From IMG/VR virus record IMGVR_UViG_3300034082_000085, positions 1-35,488 of that record: DNA of 35,488 nt; one strand, written 5' to 3'. This DNA comes from a virus. A program made the translations under genes and the position numbers. This document shows, one piece after another, positions 16,781 through 21,780 of this stretch; within the stretch, counting starts at the first letter, position 1, and the number at the start of each line of letters is the position of its first letter. The notes under the pieces were generated by a model. The model had not been told where the DNA came from, did no database searches, and saw nothing but the letters and a program-made list of their open reading frames with translations.

Positions 16781-16863
16781 AGATAGCTCGCTAAACCATA
16801 ACCTAGAGTTGTACACGCTACTGCAAATAACACAAATAAAATTGTAGCTACAAATGGATTCAT
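16777..16863 (-). CDS. Tiny hydrophobic protein (28 aa), micro-operon gene 3
   Basis: The protein has 28 residues and is below usual length cut-offs. It opens and closes with ATGA overlaps. Almost the whole chain is one membrane segment (MNPFVATILFVLFAVAC then TTLGYGLASYL). An AVAC sequence is a weak lipobox look-alike, but there is no n-region charge, so a lipoprotein is not claimed. Support comes from the unbroken overlap chain with its neighbours. Confidence 0.6.
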   Translation of the reverse strand: MNPFVATILFVLFAVACTTLGYGLASYL

Positions 16864-17063
16864 GAGTTCACCATATCGTTAATTGCTTCTTGGATTTGGT
16901 CAAAGATTGGGCTGTTACCAACCATCTCATAAATGCTAATACCACCTACTTCTAAGTCCTCAATCTCAACATAATTGCCCATAATGCCCACATCAGGTTC
17001 AGCAGAACATTCTGTGCCATATACATCAATAGGCGTATCGCCAATCGTTACAGTACCAATCAT
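16860..17063 (-). CDS. Small acidic protein, micro-operon gene 2
   Basis: The protein has 67 residues. The start at 17063 is chosen because GGGGGAATATC precedes it and it overlaps the upstream stop as ATGA; a longer frame begins at 17084 without a site. It is acidic and beta-rich (MIGTVTIGDTPIDVYG, NYVEIEDLEVGGISIYEM), with a short final helix (IFDQIQEAINDMV). No family is recognised. It is the only soluble product of the micro-operon and could bind one of its membrane partners. Confidence 0.7.
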   Translation of the reverse strand: MIGTVTIGDTPIDVYGTECSAEPDVGIMGNYVEIEDLEVGGISIYEMVGNSPIFDQIQEAINDMVNS

Positions 17064-17152
17064 GATATTCCCCCAGTTCTCCACACATAAACAATAGCAG
17101 GTATGCCAAATGCCAACACACCTGCAACCATACCTAATAAAAAGTCTTTCAT
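17060..17152 (-). CDS. Tiny membrane protein (30 aa), micro-operon gene 1
   Basis: The protein has 30 residues, with GGGGGATTT before the ATG. One membrane segment (DFLLGMVAGVLAFGIPAIVYV) is followed by WRTGGIS. The stop overlaps the next start by ATGA. A TTGCAC-N17-TAATAT promoter lies 29 bases upstream. A promoter, ribosome site and coupled stop together make a real gene likely despite its size. Confidence 0.65.
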   Translation of the reverse strand: MKDFLLGMVAGVLAFGIPAIVYVWRTGGIS

Positions 17153-17180: not shown

Positions 17181-17209
17181 ATATTAAGCCAACTTAACTA
17201 TTTGTGCAA
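17181..17209 (-). promoter_or_regulatory. Sigma70-type promoter with TTAAG palindrome operator, for the micro-operon
   Basis: Read leftward, TTGCAC (17209-17204), a 17-base spacer and TAATAT (17186-17181) form a near-consensus promoter. The perfect palindrome TTAAGCCAACTTAA (17184-17197) covers the downstream spacer and part of the -10. The same arrangement and much of the same spacer occur at 19251-19279. A protein bound there would block RNA polymerase. The nearby Cro/YdaS-like protein is the candidate. Confidence 0.75.
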
Positions 17210-17222
17210 GAATTATTTAATA

Positions 17223-17388
17223 TGTGGCTAAAAAGCAACAGGGCAGATTTGGTAGCTGTTTCATGTAACGCAGAAAGCCACAAAATTCGTTACTTGCTAC
17301 ATCCTCTTGCGATGGCTTAACGCCCTGCGAAAAGGTGGGGTGGCCCTCAGTGTGAAGGAGATTGTGGCAGGGGGATTGCCGCCACCCC
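17223..17388. ncRNA. Candidate structured RNA with possible pseudoknot and switch
   Basis: No convincing gene fills this gap. Complementary pairs are dense: CAGGGC 17239-17244 with GCCCTG 17322-17327; GTAGC 17252-17256 with GCTAC 17296-17300; GTAACG 17265-17270 with CGTTAC 17288-17293. AAGCCA 17275-17280 with TGGCTT 17313-17318 would make a pseudoknot. The last segment could instead pair with TGTGGCT at 17223-17229. A second domain has GGGGTGGC 17337-17344 with GCCACCCC 17381-17388 and an inner hairpin GGCA/TGCC with GGGGGAT in its loop. On the minus strand the same hairpin could also end the exonuclease operon. Transcription and strand are unknown. Confidence 0.45.
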
Positions 17389-17395
17389 GTAATCA

Positions 17396-18139
17396 TTATA
17401 GTTTGTTTTTAGCCCTATAAAACGCTAATAAATGGGTAAAACATTCCCACCCAATTCTCAGGTCATCTTCAGGTATCTCTACTAGTTTAGCCTTATTTTG
17501 TAGGGCGTTGACATAAACAATGGCACACCGAGCTTTGGGCATCTCAAACCCCATTCGGTAGGCTGATAACTGCATTTGGTGGTCAAAGAAGTAATCGAGC
17601 TTGTCTAGGTCTTTCTCAGTCGTTTTAAAGTCAACCACAAAGCCTGACTTGGCAACTAGGTCGCATTTACCGCCAAATCCACCATAAGCAAAGGACTTCT
17701 CAGAAATCCATAGCTGTGAGCCAAAATGCTCGTTTATGGCATTTTCTACGGCTCGGACATAAGGTGGTAGCTCAGGTATATAAATGCCCTCGTAGAAGGC
17801 TTCTATGACCCCATGTATCTGAGTGCCACGCTCTGCTGCCGATTTAGCGGTTTCCTTGCTATCAGCAACAACCCGACTTAGCCAATCTTCCTCAGATTCA
17901 CCCTCTAAGCGAGGTAATGTAAGAGCGGACAATATGGCTTGTTGTTGTTTCCATACATCCAATGCGGGTTTTGACGCACAACCAATAATTGTGGTAACTG
18001 AGGGCAGTAAGCCATGTTCTCTTGCGTCTTTGACAGTTGAGTTTCTTTCTTTCCCGTTCTTGCCAACGATGCGATAGGCTGGACTGCCATCGGGTAAGTA
18101 CCAATGACCGCTCTCACTTGTATTCTCTTTCACTAACAT
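17396..18139 (-). CDS. PD-(D/E)XK exonuclease, RecB/Cas4-like phage family
   Basis: The protein has 247 residues; GGGGGAATT precedes the ATG. The N-part has LPSVTTIIG, a typical opening of this phage nuclease family, then GTQIHGVIEAF (H109) and an active site with E147, GKCDLVAK (D160) and VVDFKTTEK (D170, K172), followed by HQMQLSAYRMG. These match the RecB-type PD-(D/E)XK core with the Q-motif helix. With the SSB-like protein it probably makes a recombination or end-processing pair, as in lambda-Exo-type systems. No single-strand annealing protein is recognised beside it. It is the last gene of the leftward operon. Confidence 0.85.
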   Translation of the reverse strand: MLVKENTSESGHWYLPDGSPAYRIVGKNGKERNSTVKDAREHGLLPSVTTIIGCASKPALDVWKQQQAILSALTLPRLEGESEEDWLSRVVADSKETAKSAAERGTQIHGVIEAFYEGIYIPELPPYVRAVENAINEHFGSQLWISEKSFAYGGFGGKCDLVAKSGFVVDFKTTEKDLDKLDYFFDHQMQLSAYRMGFEMPKARCAIVYVNALQNKAKLVEIPEDDLRIGWECFTHLLAFYRAKNKL

Positions 18140-18157
18140 AATTCCCCCTGTTAAACA

Positions 18158-18355
18158 TTACATTAACTGTAGTATTGCCGTTCTATCTTCTAGGTTTTTA
18201 ACCCTGTCGGCACAAGCCTGAACCACAGTCTTAATGACAGTTTCCAAGTCATCTTGAGCAAACCCGATGATGGGTACTTCTTCATCGTAGCCCCGTTCTT
18301 GAAAGGTCTTGACTGTATATTTTTGGTCAATAAAGTCTTTAATCATGTGGTTCAT
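18158..18355 (-). CDS. Small hypothetical protein of the recombination operon
   Basis: The protein has 65 residues, with a good AGGAG at six bases before the ATG. It is charged and helical (MIKDFIDQKYTVKTFQERGY, then DDLETVIKTVVQACADRV). No family is recognised. It lies between the SSB-like and nuclease genes and so is probably co-transcribed with them. It could modulate the nuclease, which is a guess from position. Confidence 0.65.
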   Translation of the reverse strand: MNHMIKDFIDQKYTVKTFQERGYDEEVPIIGFAQDDLETVIKTVVQACADRVKNLEDRTAILQLM

Positions 18356-18379
18356 AGCTCGCTCCTAAAGGTTACCCCC

Positions 18380-19003
18380 TCAAAACGGGACGGAATCGTC
18401 CTCTATTGCTGCGTCTTGCAACTGCTTATTTACATCAGGTTTATTAAAAGTATTGCGGTACTCGGCTGACAGCATGATTTGGTCTTTTAGACCTTGCGAT
18501 AAGCTGTCAAAAACTTCTTGGTCAAACTTCTGCAAGTCAAACAATATGCAAGGGTTTACGCCCTGTGGTACACCCGCTTTTTGTACGATTGCAGGAACTG
18601 GCGTAATAGCCACCGCATCAGCGTAGGTATTGCCGTTATTAGCGGTTCTATGCTGAACAGTAACCATGCACCATTTATCTAACAAATTGCGTAAGTCAAA
18701 GCCACGCAACTCATCATCGGTAAATGATTTGCCACGCCAAGATTCCAAGTCTTTCCGTAACGAAGCCTTATCGCCTAGCGACAGCGTGTAGTTGCGTGTT
18801 TGGATAAGGGGTTTGCCCTCAATCTTTAAATCATCGCCATGAAGCTCCCAAAAGAATTTCACTTTGCGTAGCATCTTGACTTGACCCATGTACTCGGACT
18901 TCTGTGTACCTAAGTCAATAATTCGGTATAAACGAGCTAGGTGCGACCCTACTGGGGCTACCTTAAACTCTTTCTTTTCTGTAGTTGTGCCTGTCACAAT
19001 CAT
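18380..19003 (-). CDS. Single-stranded DNA-binding protein, phage type
   Basis: The protein has 207 residues. The first 150 residues alternate strands in a way consistent with an OB fold (HLARLYRIIDLGTQKSEY, VKFFWELHGDDL, WCMVTVQHRTANNGNTYAD). The C-terminus is QDAAIEDDSVPF, the acidic tail with final Phe that SSB-type proteins use to bind partners. Proteins of this type occur beside RecB-like nucleases in many phages. GGGGGGAAACA precedes the start, and the start overlaps the previous gene's stop. It would coat single strands during replication and recombination. Confidence 0.8.
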   Translation of the reverse strand: MIVTGTTTEKKEFKVAPVGSHLARLYRIIDLGTQKSEYMGQVKMLRKVKFFWELHGDDLKIEGKPLIQTRNYTLSLGDKASLRKDLESWRGKSFTDDELRGFDLRNLLDKWCMVTVQHRTANNGNTYADAVAITPVPAIVQKAGVPQGVNPCILFDLQKFDQEVFDSLSQGLKDQIMLSAEYRNTFNKPDVNKQLQDAAIEDDSVPF

Positions 19004-19212
19004 TGTTTCCCCCCAAAAATATTAGAAAAATCATCCACAATAGCAGTCAATAATGGATTAACCCTACGCTTGTTAGGGAGTCCACAATGAAACCTGATTA
19101 GGTCTATCTCTGCCAAAGTCAACATATCGCCATCCTCTGCCTTGTCTAAAGCTATTTCAAGGCGTTCTTGGTCTTGCAACTGTTCGTTATGTAATTCCTG
19201 TAAGTCATCCAT
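19000..19212 (-). CDS. Small helical protein, first gene of the recombination operon
   Basis: The protein has 70 residues. GGAG lies seven bases before the ATG at 19212; in-frame starts further upstream have worse spacing. It is Glu/Asp/Leu-rich and helical (LHNEQLQDQERLEIALDKA) with a more basic second half (CGLPNKRRVNPLLTAIV). No family is recognised. Being the first gene behind the operator-controlled promoter, it is an early product. Confidence 0.65.
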   Translation of the reverse strand: MDDLQELHNEQLQDQERLEIALDKAEDGDMLTLAEIDLIRFHCGLPNKRRVNPLLTAIVDDFSNIFGGKQ

Positions 19213-19250
19213 AATCATCTCCAAAAGTAAACAGCTTATGCTGTACCACC

Positions 19251-19279
19251 ATATTAAGGCAATTTAAGCGTTTGTGCAA
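19251..19279 (-). promoter_or_regulatory. Sigma70-type promoter with TTAAG-type operator, for the recombination operon
   Basis: Read leftward, TTGCAC (19279-19274), a 17-base spacer and TAATAT (19256-19251) give a near-consensus promoter. An imperfect palindrome TTAAGGCAATTTAA (19254-19267) covers spacer and -10. It matches the micro-operon promoter in -35, -10, spacing and most palindrome positions. It is divergent from the Cro-like gene at 19332, an arrangement usual for an autoregulated phage switch. Confidence 0.78.
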
Positions 19280-19331
19280 ATTTATTTGTAAGTGTTGGAT
19301 AAATGTGACTATTTAATGTTAAGATAATTGA

Positions 19332-19568
19332 ATGAAGAAAAAAGTGTTTACCGATAGCCAAATTATCGAGTTACTGGGTGGGCCTACCAAAATAGCCAAA
19401 ATCTGCAAAATTAGCGTACCTGCTGTAAGTATGTGGAAAAACTCAGGGATTCCTGCCGATAAAATGGTTTATTTGGGGGCTTTGTTAGAACAAGAATCCA
19501 AAGGTTTAGTAAGCCGTAAAGACTTATTTCCTGACTCATACCAGTTGATATGGCCTGAGCTACGATGA
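19332..19568 (+). CDS. Cro/YdaS-like helix-turn-helix regulator
   Basis: The protein has 78 residues. The N-terminus MKKKVFTDSQIIELLGG, then PTKIAKICKISVPAVSMW and SGIPADKMVYL, has the pattern of the YdaS/Cro family: helix-turn-helix at about 18-38 followed by a GIP turn. Such proteins are Cro-like repressors or antitoxin-type regulators in prophages and phages. The gene diverges from the recombination operon and lies 65 bases from that operator. No ribosome site is visible before the ATG, so it may be leaderless or weakly translated. No CI-like partner with a peptidase domain is present in the genome. Confidence 0.85.
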   Translation: MKKKVFTDSQIIELLGGPTKIAKICKISVPAVSMWKNSGIPADKMVYLGALLEQESKGLVSRKDLFPDSYQLIWPELR

Positions 19569-20284
19569 GAACAGTTTGCTGGTTTTCTTGCGGTGCTGCT
19601 AGTGCCGTAGCTACAAAAATAGCCCTAAAAGAAGCTACAGGCGAAGTAGTTATAGCTTACACAGAAGTTAAAGAAGAACACCCTGATAACAAGCGATTCT
19701 TAGCCGAGTGCGAGGAATGGTTTGGGCAAAAGATTGAAATTCTTGGGAATGACTTTTACGACAGGTCAATCTATCGGGTATTTGAAAAGAACTACATCCG
19801 TACCCCCAAAGGTGCTCCATGCACTAGAGCCTTAAAAAAGCAGATTCGGGAGCGTTTTGAGAAGCCTACAGACAGACAAGTATTTGGGTACACCGCAGAA
19901 GAACAAGCCCGATTAGACCGATTTATAGACGCTAATGCCGATGTCAACATATGGACACCCCTTATAGATAAAGGCTTAGGTAAGGAAGATTGCCTTGCTA
20001 TCCTTAAAAACGCCAATATTGAACTTCCAGCTATGTACAAGCTTGGCTATCACAATAACAACTGTATTGGGTGCGTTAAGGGTGGTATGGGCTACTGGAA
20101 CAAGATAAAAGTGGACTTTCCTGAGCATTTTGACCGCATGGCAAAGCTCGAAAGATTTAAAAAGCAGACCATATTTAAAGACCGCTACCTTGATGAATTA
20201 AAGCCCACAGATGGAAACTATCCCCAAGAACCCAATATTGAGTGTTCTATTTTCTGTCAGATGGTTGAGCAAGATTTGAAATAG
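19565..20284 (+). CDS. PAPS-reductase-like PP-loop ATP pyrophosphatase family protein
   Basis: The protein has 239 residues; the start overlaps the regulator stop as ATGA. The N-terminal loop WFSCGAASAVATK contains the SxGxxS PP-loop (S8, G10, S13) that binds ATP or adenylyl groups. A Cys pair lies in NNNCIGCVKGGMGYWNKI around residues 166-180, and further Cys occur at about 101 and 231. Phage proteins of this family are annotated as phosphoadenosine phosphosulfate reductases but often lack the canonical ECGIH tail. Roles suggested for relatives include thiolation or other nucleic-acid modification. The true substrate is unknown. It is followed by the structured non-coding region. Confidence 0.82.
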   Translation: MRTVCWFSCGAASAVATKIALKEATGEVVIAYTEVKEEHPDNKRFLAECEEWFGQKIEILGNDFYDRSIYRVFEKNYIRTPKGAPCTRALKKQIRERFEKPTDRQVFGYTAEEQARLDRFIDANADVNIWTPLIDKGLGKEDCLAILKNANIELPAMYKLGYHNNNCIGCVKGGMGYWNKIKVDFPEHFDRMAKLERFKKQTIFKDRYLDELKPTDGNYPQEPNIECSIFCQMVEQDLK

Positions 20285-20297
20285 CGTTATACTGTAT

Positions 20298-20437
20298 GGG
20301 CAGAGTGATGTCTGTCTAGTAAGTAGCTCTATACACAAGACCCTTTTGGGTTGTTCTGAGTGTTTAGTAAATGAATAGAGCCATTTATTAAGCAACATCA
20401 CCTTAGAGCAACCCAAAGGGGTTTTTCTATTTCTGCC
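20298..20437 (+). terminator. Terminator region with two mutually exclusive folds (possible attenuator)
   Basis: An 18-base arm at 20340-20357 pairs with 20405-20422 using two G-U pairs, and TTTTCTATTT follows: a strong intrinsic terminator, with TTAGTAAATG (20364-20373) and CATTTATTAA (20382-20391) pairing inside. A competing fold uses GTGATGT 20305-20311 with ACATCAC 20395-20401, GCTCTAT 20326-20332 with ATAGAGC 20375-20381, and two small ACCC/GGGT hairpins. The sets cannot form together. A seven-codon ATG frame (20296-20319) sits at the front. Termination after the PAPS-like gene is well supported; switching is inference. Confidence 0.7.
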
Positions 20438-20607
20438 ACCCGAAACGACAGGGTGTTAGAAAAAGTCGGGGATGGGCTAGAGGCCGATGGAGATTCAGCA
20501 TCGGAGCGAGGGTCGACACCTGCGATAGCCGCCAAGATACTGGGTCAAGCCAGCTTGGGTAGAGTCGTTACTCGATACATCTCTTGACAGTATCGCCACT
20601 TGTGGCG
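20437..20607 (+). ncRNA. Candidate structured non-coding RNA
   Basis: The segment is GC-rich (about 54% by hand count over 20441-20620, against about 23% in the next 120 bases). It is packed with complementary arms: CACCC 20437-20441 with GGGTG 20451-20455; GGCTA 20475-20479 with TAGCC 20526-20530, enclosing CCGATG 20484-20489 with CATCGG 20499-20504; and GATACTG 20536-20542 with CAGTATC 20588-20594, enclosing CAAG/CTTG and GAGT-CGTT-ACTC hairpins. CGCCAC 20594-20599 with GTGGCG 20602-20607 follows. A 44-codon GTG frame (20453-20587) crosses it but has no ribosome site. Together with the previous entry this fills most of the 520-base gap. No known RNA family is recognised; the strand is assumed. 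Confidence 0.5.
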
Positions 20608-20640
20608 TTGGTCGTTCTATGGGAAAAGAGCTTGCAAGTA

Positions 20641-20768
20641 AATGGTTCTTTAATACAAAAAGTTATATGTAAATTATATATACCAACATAATGTAACTTA
20701 TAGGTTACTTTATAGGCGTTAATGTAATACTTATGAGTTATAAGGGTTTATACCTATATACCTTATTA
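20641..20768. other. AT-rich intergenic segment (promoter region, possible unwinding element)
   Basis: This stretch is very AT-rich and carries small inverted repeats such as GTAAC-N6-GTTAC around 20692-20707 and TATAGG/CCTATA. It lies between the structured RNA and the operator at 20769. It probably contains the promoter of the genes from 20806, though no clean -35 is seen; TATATA near 20755 is a possible -10. An origin of replication is also conceivable, as AT-rich elements close to early genes often serve this purpose, but no iterons were found. Confidence 0.35.
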
Positions 20769-20782
20769 TTAAGTAAACTTAA
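20769..20782. promoter_or_regulatory. Third TTAAG-N4-CTTAA palindrome (predicted operator)
   Basis: TTAAGTAAACTTAA is a perfect palindrome in its five-base arms with a four-base centre, the same as at 17184-17197. It lies 24 bases before the start at 20806 and just downstream of TATATA/TTATTA, where a repressor would block initiation. It extends the predicted regulon to the rightward early genes. Confidence 0.6.
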
Positions 20783-20805
20783 CCTACAGTCTTTAAGGGG
20801 GAATA

Positions 20806-21069
20806 ATGAAACTACTAATCACCGCATTAATCACCGCAACACCTGTAATGGCTCAAACTTATGTGGTTACAAATCCACAGGGAAATGTTTCTTATTATGT
20901 ACAAAAACAAGGTAATCAGGTTCAAATAGTAAACAATCAGGGGGTGGTGCAAAACGCCACAATTTACTCAAATCAGGTCGTTACACCGCAAGGTTATGCT
21001 ATTGGTACGCCTAGCTATACAGTACCTATGAGTCCACCAAGCCCACCTAGCCCAAGGGTTTTACAATGA
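20806..21069 (+). CDS. Small secreted/periplasmic protein with signal peptide
   Basis: The protein has 87 residues; AAGGGGGAATA precedes the ATG. Residues 1-16 (MKLLITALITATPVMA) are a Sec signal peptide with a cleavage site after AxA-like VMA, and QT begins the mature chain. The mature part has repeats of Asn/Gln/Val (VTNPQGNVSYYVQKQGNQ) and a Pro/Ser-rich C-terminus. No family is recognised beyond similar small exported proteins in phage early regions. An early exported product could alter the envelope, for example superinfection exclusion, which is inference. The stop overlaps the next start by ATGA. Confidence 0.75.
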   Translation: MKLLITALITATPVMAQTYVVTNPQGNVSYYVQKQGNQVQIVNNQGVVQNATIYSNQVVTPQGYAIGTPSYTVPMSPPSPPSPRVLQ

Positions 21070-21405: not shown

Positions 21406-21780
21406 GTGGATTTTGAAAAGTTTTGGATAAATTGGCCCAAAAAGGTCGCAAAGAAAAAAGCTGAAATTGCTTGGAAAAGATTGACTGACCTTGAACAGCG
21501 TGAAGCCTTAGAAGCCTTGCCTAAACACCTTAGACATTGGCAACTTAAACGCACCGAAATAGACTATATTCCATACCCTGCCAGTTGGATAAACGCTGCA
21601 CGATGGGAAGATGTTTTAGACATGACCCCCGCCAAAGAAAAGGTGGACAGGTCGTGGATGTTTAGCCAACAAGGTATTGAGAACAAAGCTCGTGAACTAG
21701 GAATACTTGGTAACGGATACGATAGCTACGAAACCTTAAAAAAGAAATGTATGATGCGAATGGGTATGGAGATTGATTGA
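21406..21780 (+). CDS. Replication-associated protein with DnaT/phage-O C-terminal-like domain
   Basis: The protein has 124 residues from a GTG preceded by AGGGGGAT. It starts DFEKFWINWPKKVAKKKAE, continues AWKRLTDLEQREALEALPKH and has YIPYPASWINAARWEDVL. This FW..WP+K...W..L and P.P.+W+N..RWED pattern is the C-terminal element of many phage replication initiators and helicase-loader-like proteins. Here it stands alone without the usual N-terminal winged-helix domain. It may load or recruit the host helicase, because no phage helicase or polymerase is present. The call rests on motif recall. Confidence 0.75.
   Translation: MDFEKFWINWPKKVAKKKAEIAWKRLTDLEQREALEALPKHLRHWQLKRTEIDYIPYPASWINAARWEDVLDMTPAKEKVDRSWMFSQQGIENKARELGILGNGYDSYETLKKKCMMRMGMEID

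Follow-up and report, generated by a model that had tools for sequence, protein, structure and literature searches.

The virus record IMGVR_UViG_3300034082_000085 of IMG/VR is 35,488 nucleotides long and was analysed as a whole, so that the window in what follows is the entire record. A gene at 19332–19568 on its plus strand encodes a Cro/YdaS-like helix-turn-helix (HTH) protein of 78 amino acids (aa), here called the regulator, and palindromes of the form TTAAr-N4-yTTAA stand at three promoters, named S1 (at 17184), PL (at 19254) and S3 (at 20769). Comparison of the window with its relatives indicates that the regulator is most likely an autoregulated Cro-type repressor, tuning or shutting off early promoters in a phage where no lysogeny genes were found; the probability that it is a stand-alone repressor of this type, acting at TTAAG-N4-CTTAA of S1, PL, S3 and its own promoter, is put at about 0.86. 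Across the relatives, the palindromes co-vary with the DNA-reading helix of the regulator, and it is this that ties operator and repressor together. Hundreds of uncultured relatives of this freshwater phage appear to use one small self-regulating repressor in the same manner. The original prediction held that a single Cro-like protein may shut down early genes on both strands; it is supported by 94 operator sites in relatives, by the helix–operator co-variation and by an operator site of phage P22, and the regulon is slightly larger than claimed, since the promoter of the regulator itself has a fourth site.

Palindromic Operators in the Window and Its Relatives

Exact matches to TTAAr-N4-yTTAA (TTAARNNNNYTTAA) occur only three times in the 35,488 bases, at precisely the coordinates first reported: 17184–17197 (S1, TTAAGCCAACTTAA), 19254–19267 (PL, TTAAGGCAATTTAA) and 20769–20782 (S3, TTAAGTAAACTTAA). 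The expected number is 0.65, and at least three sites were obtained in 5 of 100 dinucleotide shuffles; when two mismatches are allowed in the window scan, the excess is absent (14 sites against 16.2 expected). The statistics of the window by themselves are marginal and suggestive at most, and it is the comparison with relatives that decides. Relatives, designated by L numbers, were collected by searching viral contigs with the regulator (64 loci) and with the protein of 18380–19003 (80 loci; "recT" below is a label only for this protein, whose neighbours hint at recombination), and by profile searches from which the best 80 of 353, the best 80 of 548 and the best 80 of 538 relatives were taken.

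On contigs with a near-identical regulator, TTAA-N6-TTAA is found at the same three places and almost nowhere else, and these positions recur even where the distance from the regulator gene shifts by hundreds of bases. The S1 site keeps TTAAG-N4-CTTAA, the PL site keeps TTAA-N6-TTAA, and the S3 palindrome is retained even in relatives whose flanks are unrelated (TTGCAATAAATGTTAAGTTGGCTTAACCT in L042/L043). The arms are constant, as is the placement over the −10 or the spacer, while the inner bases vary (GCCAAC, GCTAAC, GTTAAC, GCAAAC, GACAAC, GTTATC). The motif scan of full genome and relatives that had been proposed covered 60 non-redundant contigs with the recognition helix SVPAVSMW (519,159 nt), in which TTAAG-N4-CTTAA occurs 94 times against 1.6 expected from a first-order Markov model. 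Among them, 52 sites fall in the S3 interval, 39 in S1 and 3 in PL; none lies elsewhere. Most PL sites are left out of this count because they are imperfect (TTAAGCCAAATTAA, TTAAGGCAATTTAA). Whole-record scans of close relatives agree with the contig count.

The fourth operator-like site, a degenerate TTAAGATAATTGAA at 19319–19332 on the plus strand, overlaps both the −10 element and the ATG of the regulator gene. At the equivalent position the site is perfect (TTAAACTTGCTTAA) in L010, L014, L016, L017, L032, L042–L044 and L052, and reads TTAAACTGACTTAA in L056; several relatives have TTAAACTTGCTTAATG at the regulator promoter, a perfect site whose final A doubles as the first base of the ATG. 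In L031, L035 and L039 an insertion of about 340 bp, resembling a fragment of an HNH endonuclease gene, lies between PL and the regulator, and the fourth operator was not seen in these three.

The Regulator Protein

The regulator passes the Pfam family YdaS_toxin (PF15943) with 33.6 bits against a cut-off of 30 and stays below that of P22_Cro (PF14549; 26.4 bits against 30.2), so that by the Pfam rule it is a homologue and not a member of the latter. It also matches phrog_35 (transcriptional repressor), aligns with P22 Cro at 37% identity over 51 aa, as a distant homologue, and with its 78 aa lies within the size of a Cro (an HTH protein below 100 aa). The AlphaFold2 monomer (pLDDT 88) has helices at residues 18–25 and 29–38, and the recognition helix corresponds approximately to residues 29–38 (S28 VPAVSMWKN). 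A fold search with the regulator retrieved Xfaso1 Cro, YdaS, lambda CI and P22 Cro, each of them with a weak E-value (best 0.1). The gene lies close to the second palindrome, as had been noted, and starts 64 bases past it. Outside viral collections, five contigs of metagenome-assembled genomes carry the regulator family among 84,980 species genomes searched, and one isolate match spans only 26 residues.

Co-Variation of Recognition Helix and Operator

In some relatives the regulator at the same locus is only 48–53% identical to that of the window, and its recognition helix differs: SVQAVHKW in type B (L112–L114), STQAVHRW in type C (L115, L126) and TTQAVHRW in type D (L116, L120, L129–L142), where type A denotes the window's own kind. 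At S1 and S3 these phages have palindromes of the TAAAC-N4-GTTTA type (TCAACTTTAGTTTA, TAAACTTTAGTTTA, TAAACTAAAGTTTA, TAAACAAAAGTTGA), and the site at the start codon is TAAACTAGAGTTTA in type C and TAAAATTACTTTTA in type D. Type F (L188–L206 in part, L288–L290), conversely, has a more distant regulator and yet the helix SVPAVSMW, with TTAAG-N4-CTTAA at S1 and usually at S3, and TTAA-N6-TTAA at PL. Identity to the window is about 48–61% for the exonuclease and about 42–46% for recT in type F, where measured, compared with mostly 78–84% and 76–88%, respectively, in types B, C and D. The distant type F thus shares helix and operator with the window while the closer types have others, which indicates that the operator tracks the helix and not general relatedness. 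Further half-sites are found at the same promoters with other helices, for example TTAACAAAAATTAA with APPAVAQW, TTAACATAACTTAA with EPAAVSQW and GTAAGCATATTTAC with TPNAVSMW.

A tree of the exonuclease was built from types A–D with F as outgroup (200 bootstrap trees). L118/L119, in which the helix is PAVSMW and each of S1, PL and S3 has a TTAA operator, form with the 12 QAVH phages a group of 14 rows with support of 98/99, while the PAVSMW phages are united in 0% of the 200 bootstrap trees. The exonuclease gene is flanked by PL and S1, so that a joint switch of the regulator and its remote operators appears to have taken place around it; this joint change is suggested by the tree, not proven.

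Promoters and Proposed Mechanism

Both S1 and PL have the minus-strand arrangement TTGCAC-N17-TAATAT, with the −10 at 17181–17186 and the −35 at 17204–17209 for S1, and at 19251–19256 and 19274–19279, respectively, for PL. The TTGCA-N17-TAATAT arrangement is kept in many relatives, and the claim of near-identical promoters whose −10 is overlapped by the palindrome agrees with both the window and the comparison. A scan for sigma-70 consensus promoters listed neither S1 nor PL and gave no excess of predictions. The S3 promoter is without TTGCAC; instead it has a probable −10-like TAACCT at 20780–20785 on the plus strand, placed according to the spacing in TTGCAA-N17-TAACCT of L043, and a second palindrome adjoining the −35 position. 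At the regulator promoter, an extended −10 (TGTTAAGAT, 19317–19325, plus strand) is overlapped by the fourth site, and in relatives TGnTAArmT is kept there, followed after about 6 nt by ATG. Because this placement would put the start of transcription at or beside the ATG, probably at or near its A, the regulator mRNA is likely leaderless.

The second palindrome, of the TAGGG-N4/5-CCCTA type (20742–20756, plus strand), abuts the −35 position of S3 and is a candidate activator site. In most relatives it stands upstream of the −35 of S1 and/or S3, and neither PL nor the regulator promoter showed it. The pattern has 226 matches against about 40 expected by chance; 98 of these 226 have an operator on their own strand up to about 60 nt further downstream, at distances clustering at 15, 27–28 and 34–39 nt. 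In the window, its centre at S3 precedes the predicted start by about 43 bases, the position of a class II activator, and in other relatives it is displaced by about one helical turn.

What follows on DNA binding and repression, on relative affinities and timing, and on translation without a leader is inferred from the sequences. Upon entry, S1, PL and S3 would fire, giving the small leftward genes, the leftward recombination operon and the rightward replication operon, respectively. The regulator would bind TTAAG-N4-CTTAA, presumably as a dimer, and as it accumulates RNA polymerase would be blocked at S1 and S3, which have perfect operators; this block is expected because the operators cover the −10 or the spacer. 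At PL and at the regulator's own promoter, where the operators are imperfect, the block would be weaker. The difference between perfect and imperfect sites suggests graded repression with self-limitation, and early transcription would as a result be tuned or shut off in a self-limited way. The earlier statement that each palindrome lies in front of an early unit is made probable by gene content for PL and S3, and not for S1, which is followed by small genes of unknown function.

Lysogeny Genes and Known Cro Systems

In the 24 near-complete records, the integrase family PF00589 was found in none (the control was positive in 14/14 genomes; serine recombinases were not searched), and neither was the S24 peptidase PF00717 of CI-type repressors; HTH_3 was found in 3 of the 24, none of them the window. 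This agrees with the claim that no CI-type repressor is present. With CI, CII and integrase all missing from what was found, the regulator would be a lone lytic repressor and not one arm of a lysogeny switch. The arrangement also departs from a lambdoid immunity region in that the PL operon, not a CI gene, is divergent from the regulator, and in that each promoter has a single TTAA-N6-TTAA site instead of clustered multiple operators.

The window resembles P22 in operator sequence. The annotated P22 OR region contains AGTTAAGTCATCTTAAAT, which includes exactly TTAAG-N4-CTTAA, and the close ATTTAAGTGTTCTTTAAT, while the OL region contains ATTTAAGACTTCTTAATT, likewise close; the S1 and S3 sites of the window conform to the NAAG-N4-CTTN dyad of these P22 operators. 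The recognition helix is SDAAVSQW in P22 Cro and SVPAVSMW in the window, and both systems (the window presumably) act on the early-left and early-right promoters. P22, however, has the c2 repressor, c1 and clustered operator triplets per promoter, whereas the window has one operator each and a third, presumably controlled promoter, S1, and its regulator and PL diverge directly, no gene separating them. YdaS of CP-933P (8CO2, 8C7K) shares with the regulator PF15943, the WPE C-terminal motif and the fold; unlike the regulator, it works alongside PaaR2 (CI-like) and YdaT (CII-like) in a temperate switch, and its inverted-repeat consensus is GTTTAGTAA, not TTAAG. About the closest proteins among annotated cultured phages are the Cro proteins of temperate Acinetobacter phages such as Ab1656-2 (47% identity), which stands in a cI-cro-cII region and has the helix ITPPSVSGW; TTAA-N6-TTAA is absent from the stretch of that phage examined. 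No description of such a regulon was found in the literature. The proposed regulon, with a lone Cro of the P22 type whose specificity is exchangeable, is new as a combination and of a kind already known.

The nearest terminases in the annotated collection belong to HTVC010P-type pelagiphages, Rhodoferax phage P26218 and Methylophilales phage Venkman, whose genomes are 33–39 kb. This affinity, at 41–44% identity only, points tentatively to podoviruses of the pelagiphage/P26218 type. The early genes of P26218 include DNA polymerase and helicase; its annotation shows no such regulator, and TTAAG-N4-CTTAA is absent.

Alternative Explanations

The name of the top Pfam match, YdaS_toxin, could suggest that the regulator is a toxin or antitoxin of the YdaS type. 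The family name is historical: YdaS of CP-933P acts like Cro, binding operators in electrophoretic mobility shift assays and footprinting, and the authors argue that YdaS and YdaT are not a toxin–antitoxin pair (PMC8630535). The toxin reading of the name was rejected on the strength of that work, and as the motif evidence points to control of several distant phage operons, only a very slender chance is left for a toxin or antitoxin. The palindromes might also be sites of a host transcription factor borrowed by the phage, and the second palindrome at S1 and S3, for which no phage binder is known, means that further factors are probably at work at these promoters. With a host factor, one would not expect the half-site to change with the phage recognition helix at syntenic promoters, including the regulator's own, and P22's own operators share this sequence type, so this explanation is very improbable. 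Slighter still is the likelihood that RNA polymerase reads the repeats as conserved promoter or spacer sequence, with no repressor involved: the palindromes do overlap the −10, and both minus-strand promoters are near-identical, but the palindrome is kept at S3 where flanks differ, arms stay constant around variable inner bases, and a different palindrome occupies the promoters of the same genes in type B, C and D phages.

More weight, while still improbable, is given to a regulator that mainly confers superinfection immunity or a carrier-like state, CI-like rather than Cro-like. A leaderless regulator mRNA would fit it, as leaderless mRNAs are reported for cI and paaR2 (PMC8630535), and specificity classes do differ between co-occurring phages; on the other side stand the lack of any integrase found, the single operator per promoter in place of cooperative triplets, and no sign of positive autoregulation.

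Several observations weigh against a stand-alone Cro-type repressor. Of the window's own sites, the fourth and that of PL are imperfect, and as a −35 for sigma-70 TTGCAC is poor. Judged by the second palindrome, another factor probably also acts at S1 and S3. The S1 and S3 intervals used in the 94-site count are broad (1.7 and 1.2 kb). In types B, C and D the PL site is only half-recognisable (TAAAC-N4-TTTTA) and several S1 and S3 sites fail the strict pattern; type C L115 retains TTAAGACAACTTAA near S1. Finally, the approximately unbiased (AU) test on the exonuclease tree keeps a single clade for PAVSMW (p 0.13) as well as for QAVH (p 0.31), and because these tests are non-significant, independent co-switching is suggested by the support values and not proven.

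Genes of the Presumably Controlled Units and RNA Structures

The PL operon, on the minus strand, begins with a small protein gene at 19000–19224 (the ATG of MDDLQ is the likelier start), followed by 18380–19003 (phrog_862, function unknown) and a small conserved gene at 18158–18355, all three kept in relatives; it ends with the PD-(D/E)XK exonuclease at 17396–18139 (phrog_298, PF12705). Behind S1, also on the minus strand, lie a gene for a hydrophobic 30-aa protein (17060–17152) and a small gene at 16860–17084 (phrog_18992, unknown function). On the plus strand, the first gene behind S3 (20806–21069), kept in relatives, encodes a small, possibly exported protein, and the same unit contains a replication-initiation-like protein (21406–21780, phrog_270). 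Directly behind the regulator is a PAPS-reductase-like auxiliary gene (19565–20284, plus strand, phrog_424); as the distance from regulator to S3 varies widely in relatives, this position looks like a variable cargo slot. Elsewhere, the protein of 26267–26623 matches phrog_858 ("starvation-inducible transcriptional regulator") and the Pfam family DUF5856.

A conserved RNA at 17226–17332 on the minus strand lies at the 3′ end of the exonuclease gene and of the PL operon, just upstream of the S1 promoter, and is followed by a T-run. It consists of five helices, forming nested stems and a pseudoknot, with 92.9% of cells paired and 16 pairs changed on both sides; its covariation is 0.453, compared with 0.187 when shuffled and at most 0.106 when slid. 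The pseudoknot pairs AAGCCA:TGGCTT in the window and AAGCCGC:GCGGCTT or AAGCAAG:CTTGCTT elsewhere. The RNA is present in 17 of 27 records searched, some of which fed the model. Rfam gave no match in the window except a chance hit (E 0.77), and none in the S1 region. At the 5′ extremity of the PL leader there is a hairpin, ACAGCATAAGCTGT (19231–19244, minus strand), which elsewhere has the same pairing in other sequences (ATAGCAATTTTGCTAT, CCTGACTACTCAGG, ACCGAATACTCGGT); stems of at least 5 bp are found in 96 of 109 distinct leader stretches, compared with 28% of shuffles, and the hairpin possibly protects the 5′ end of the mRNA. The region 20440–20640, structured at first sight, folds no better than shuffles (z 0.33).

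Biological Significance

The lone Cro repressor may be split into many helix/operator classes that are exchanged as co-adapted sets between genomes otherwise alike and act as immunity groups without lysogeny; this extension is unlikely as it stands, but if it were true, a second phage infecting the same cell would be shut down by the resident's regulator when both belong to one class, and new specificities would be favoured by selection. The relatives of the window form a natural series of protein–DNA specificities in an abundant, largely uncultured group of freshwater phages, with dozens of recognition-helix types, for many of which an operator can be recognised at these promoters, and the series is large enough for a recognition code to be derived by comparison. 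The Cro half of the lambda/P22 switch may be able to survive and diversify where CI and integrase are lacking, a point of relevance to the lytic role of Cro, and the early promoters of these uncultured phages would become predictable.

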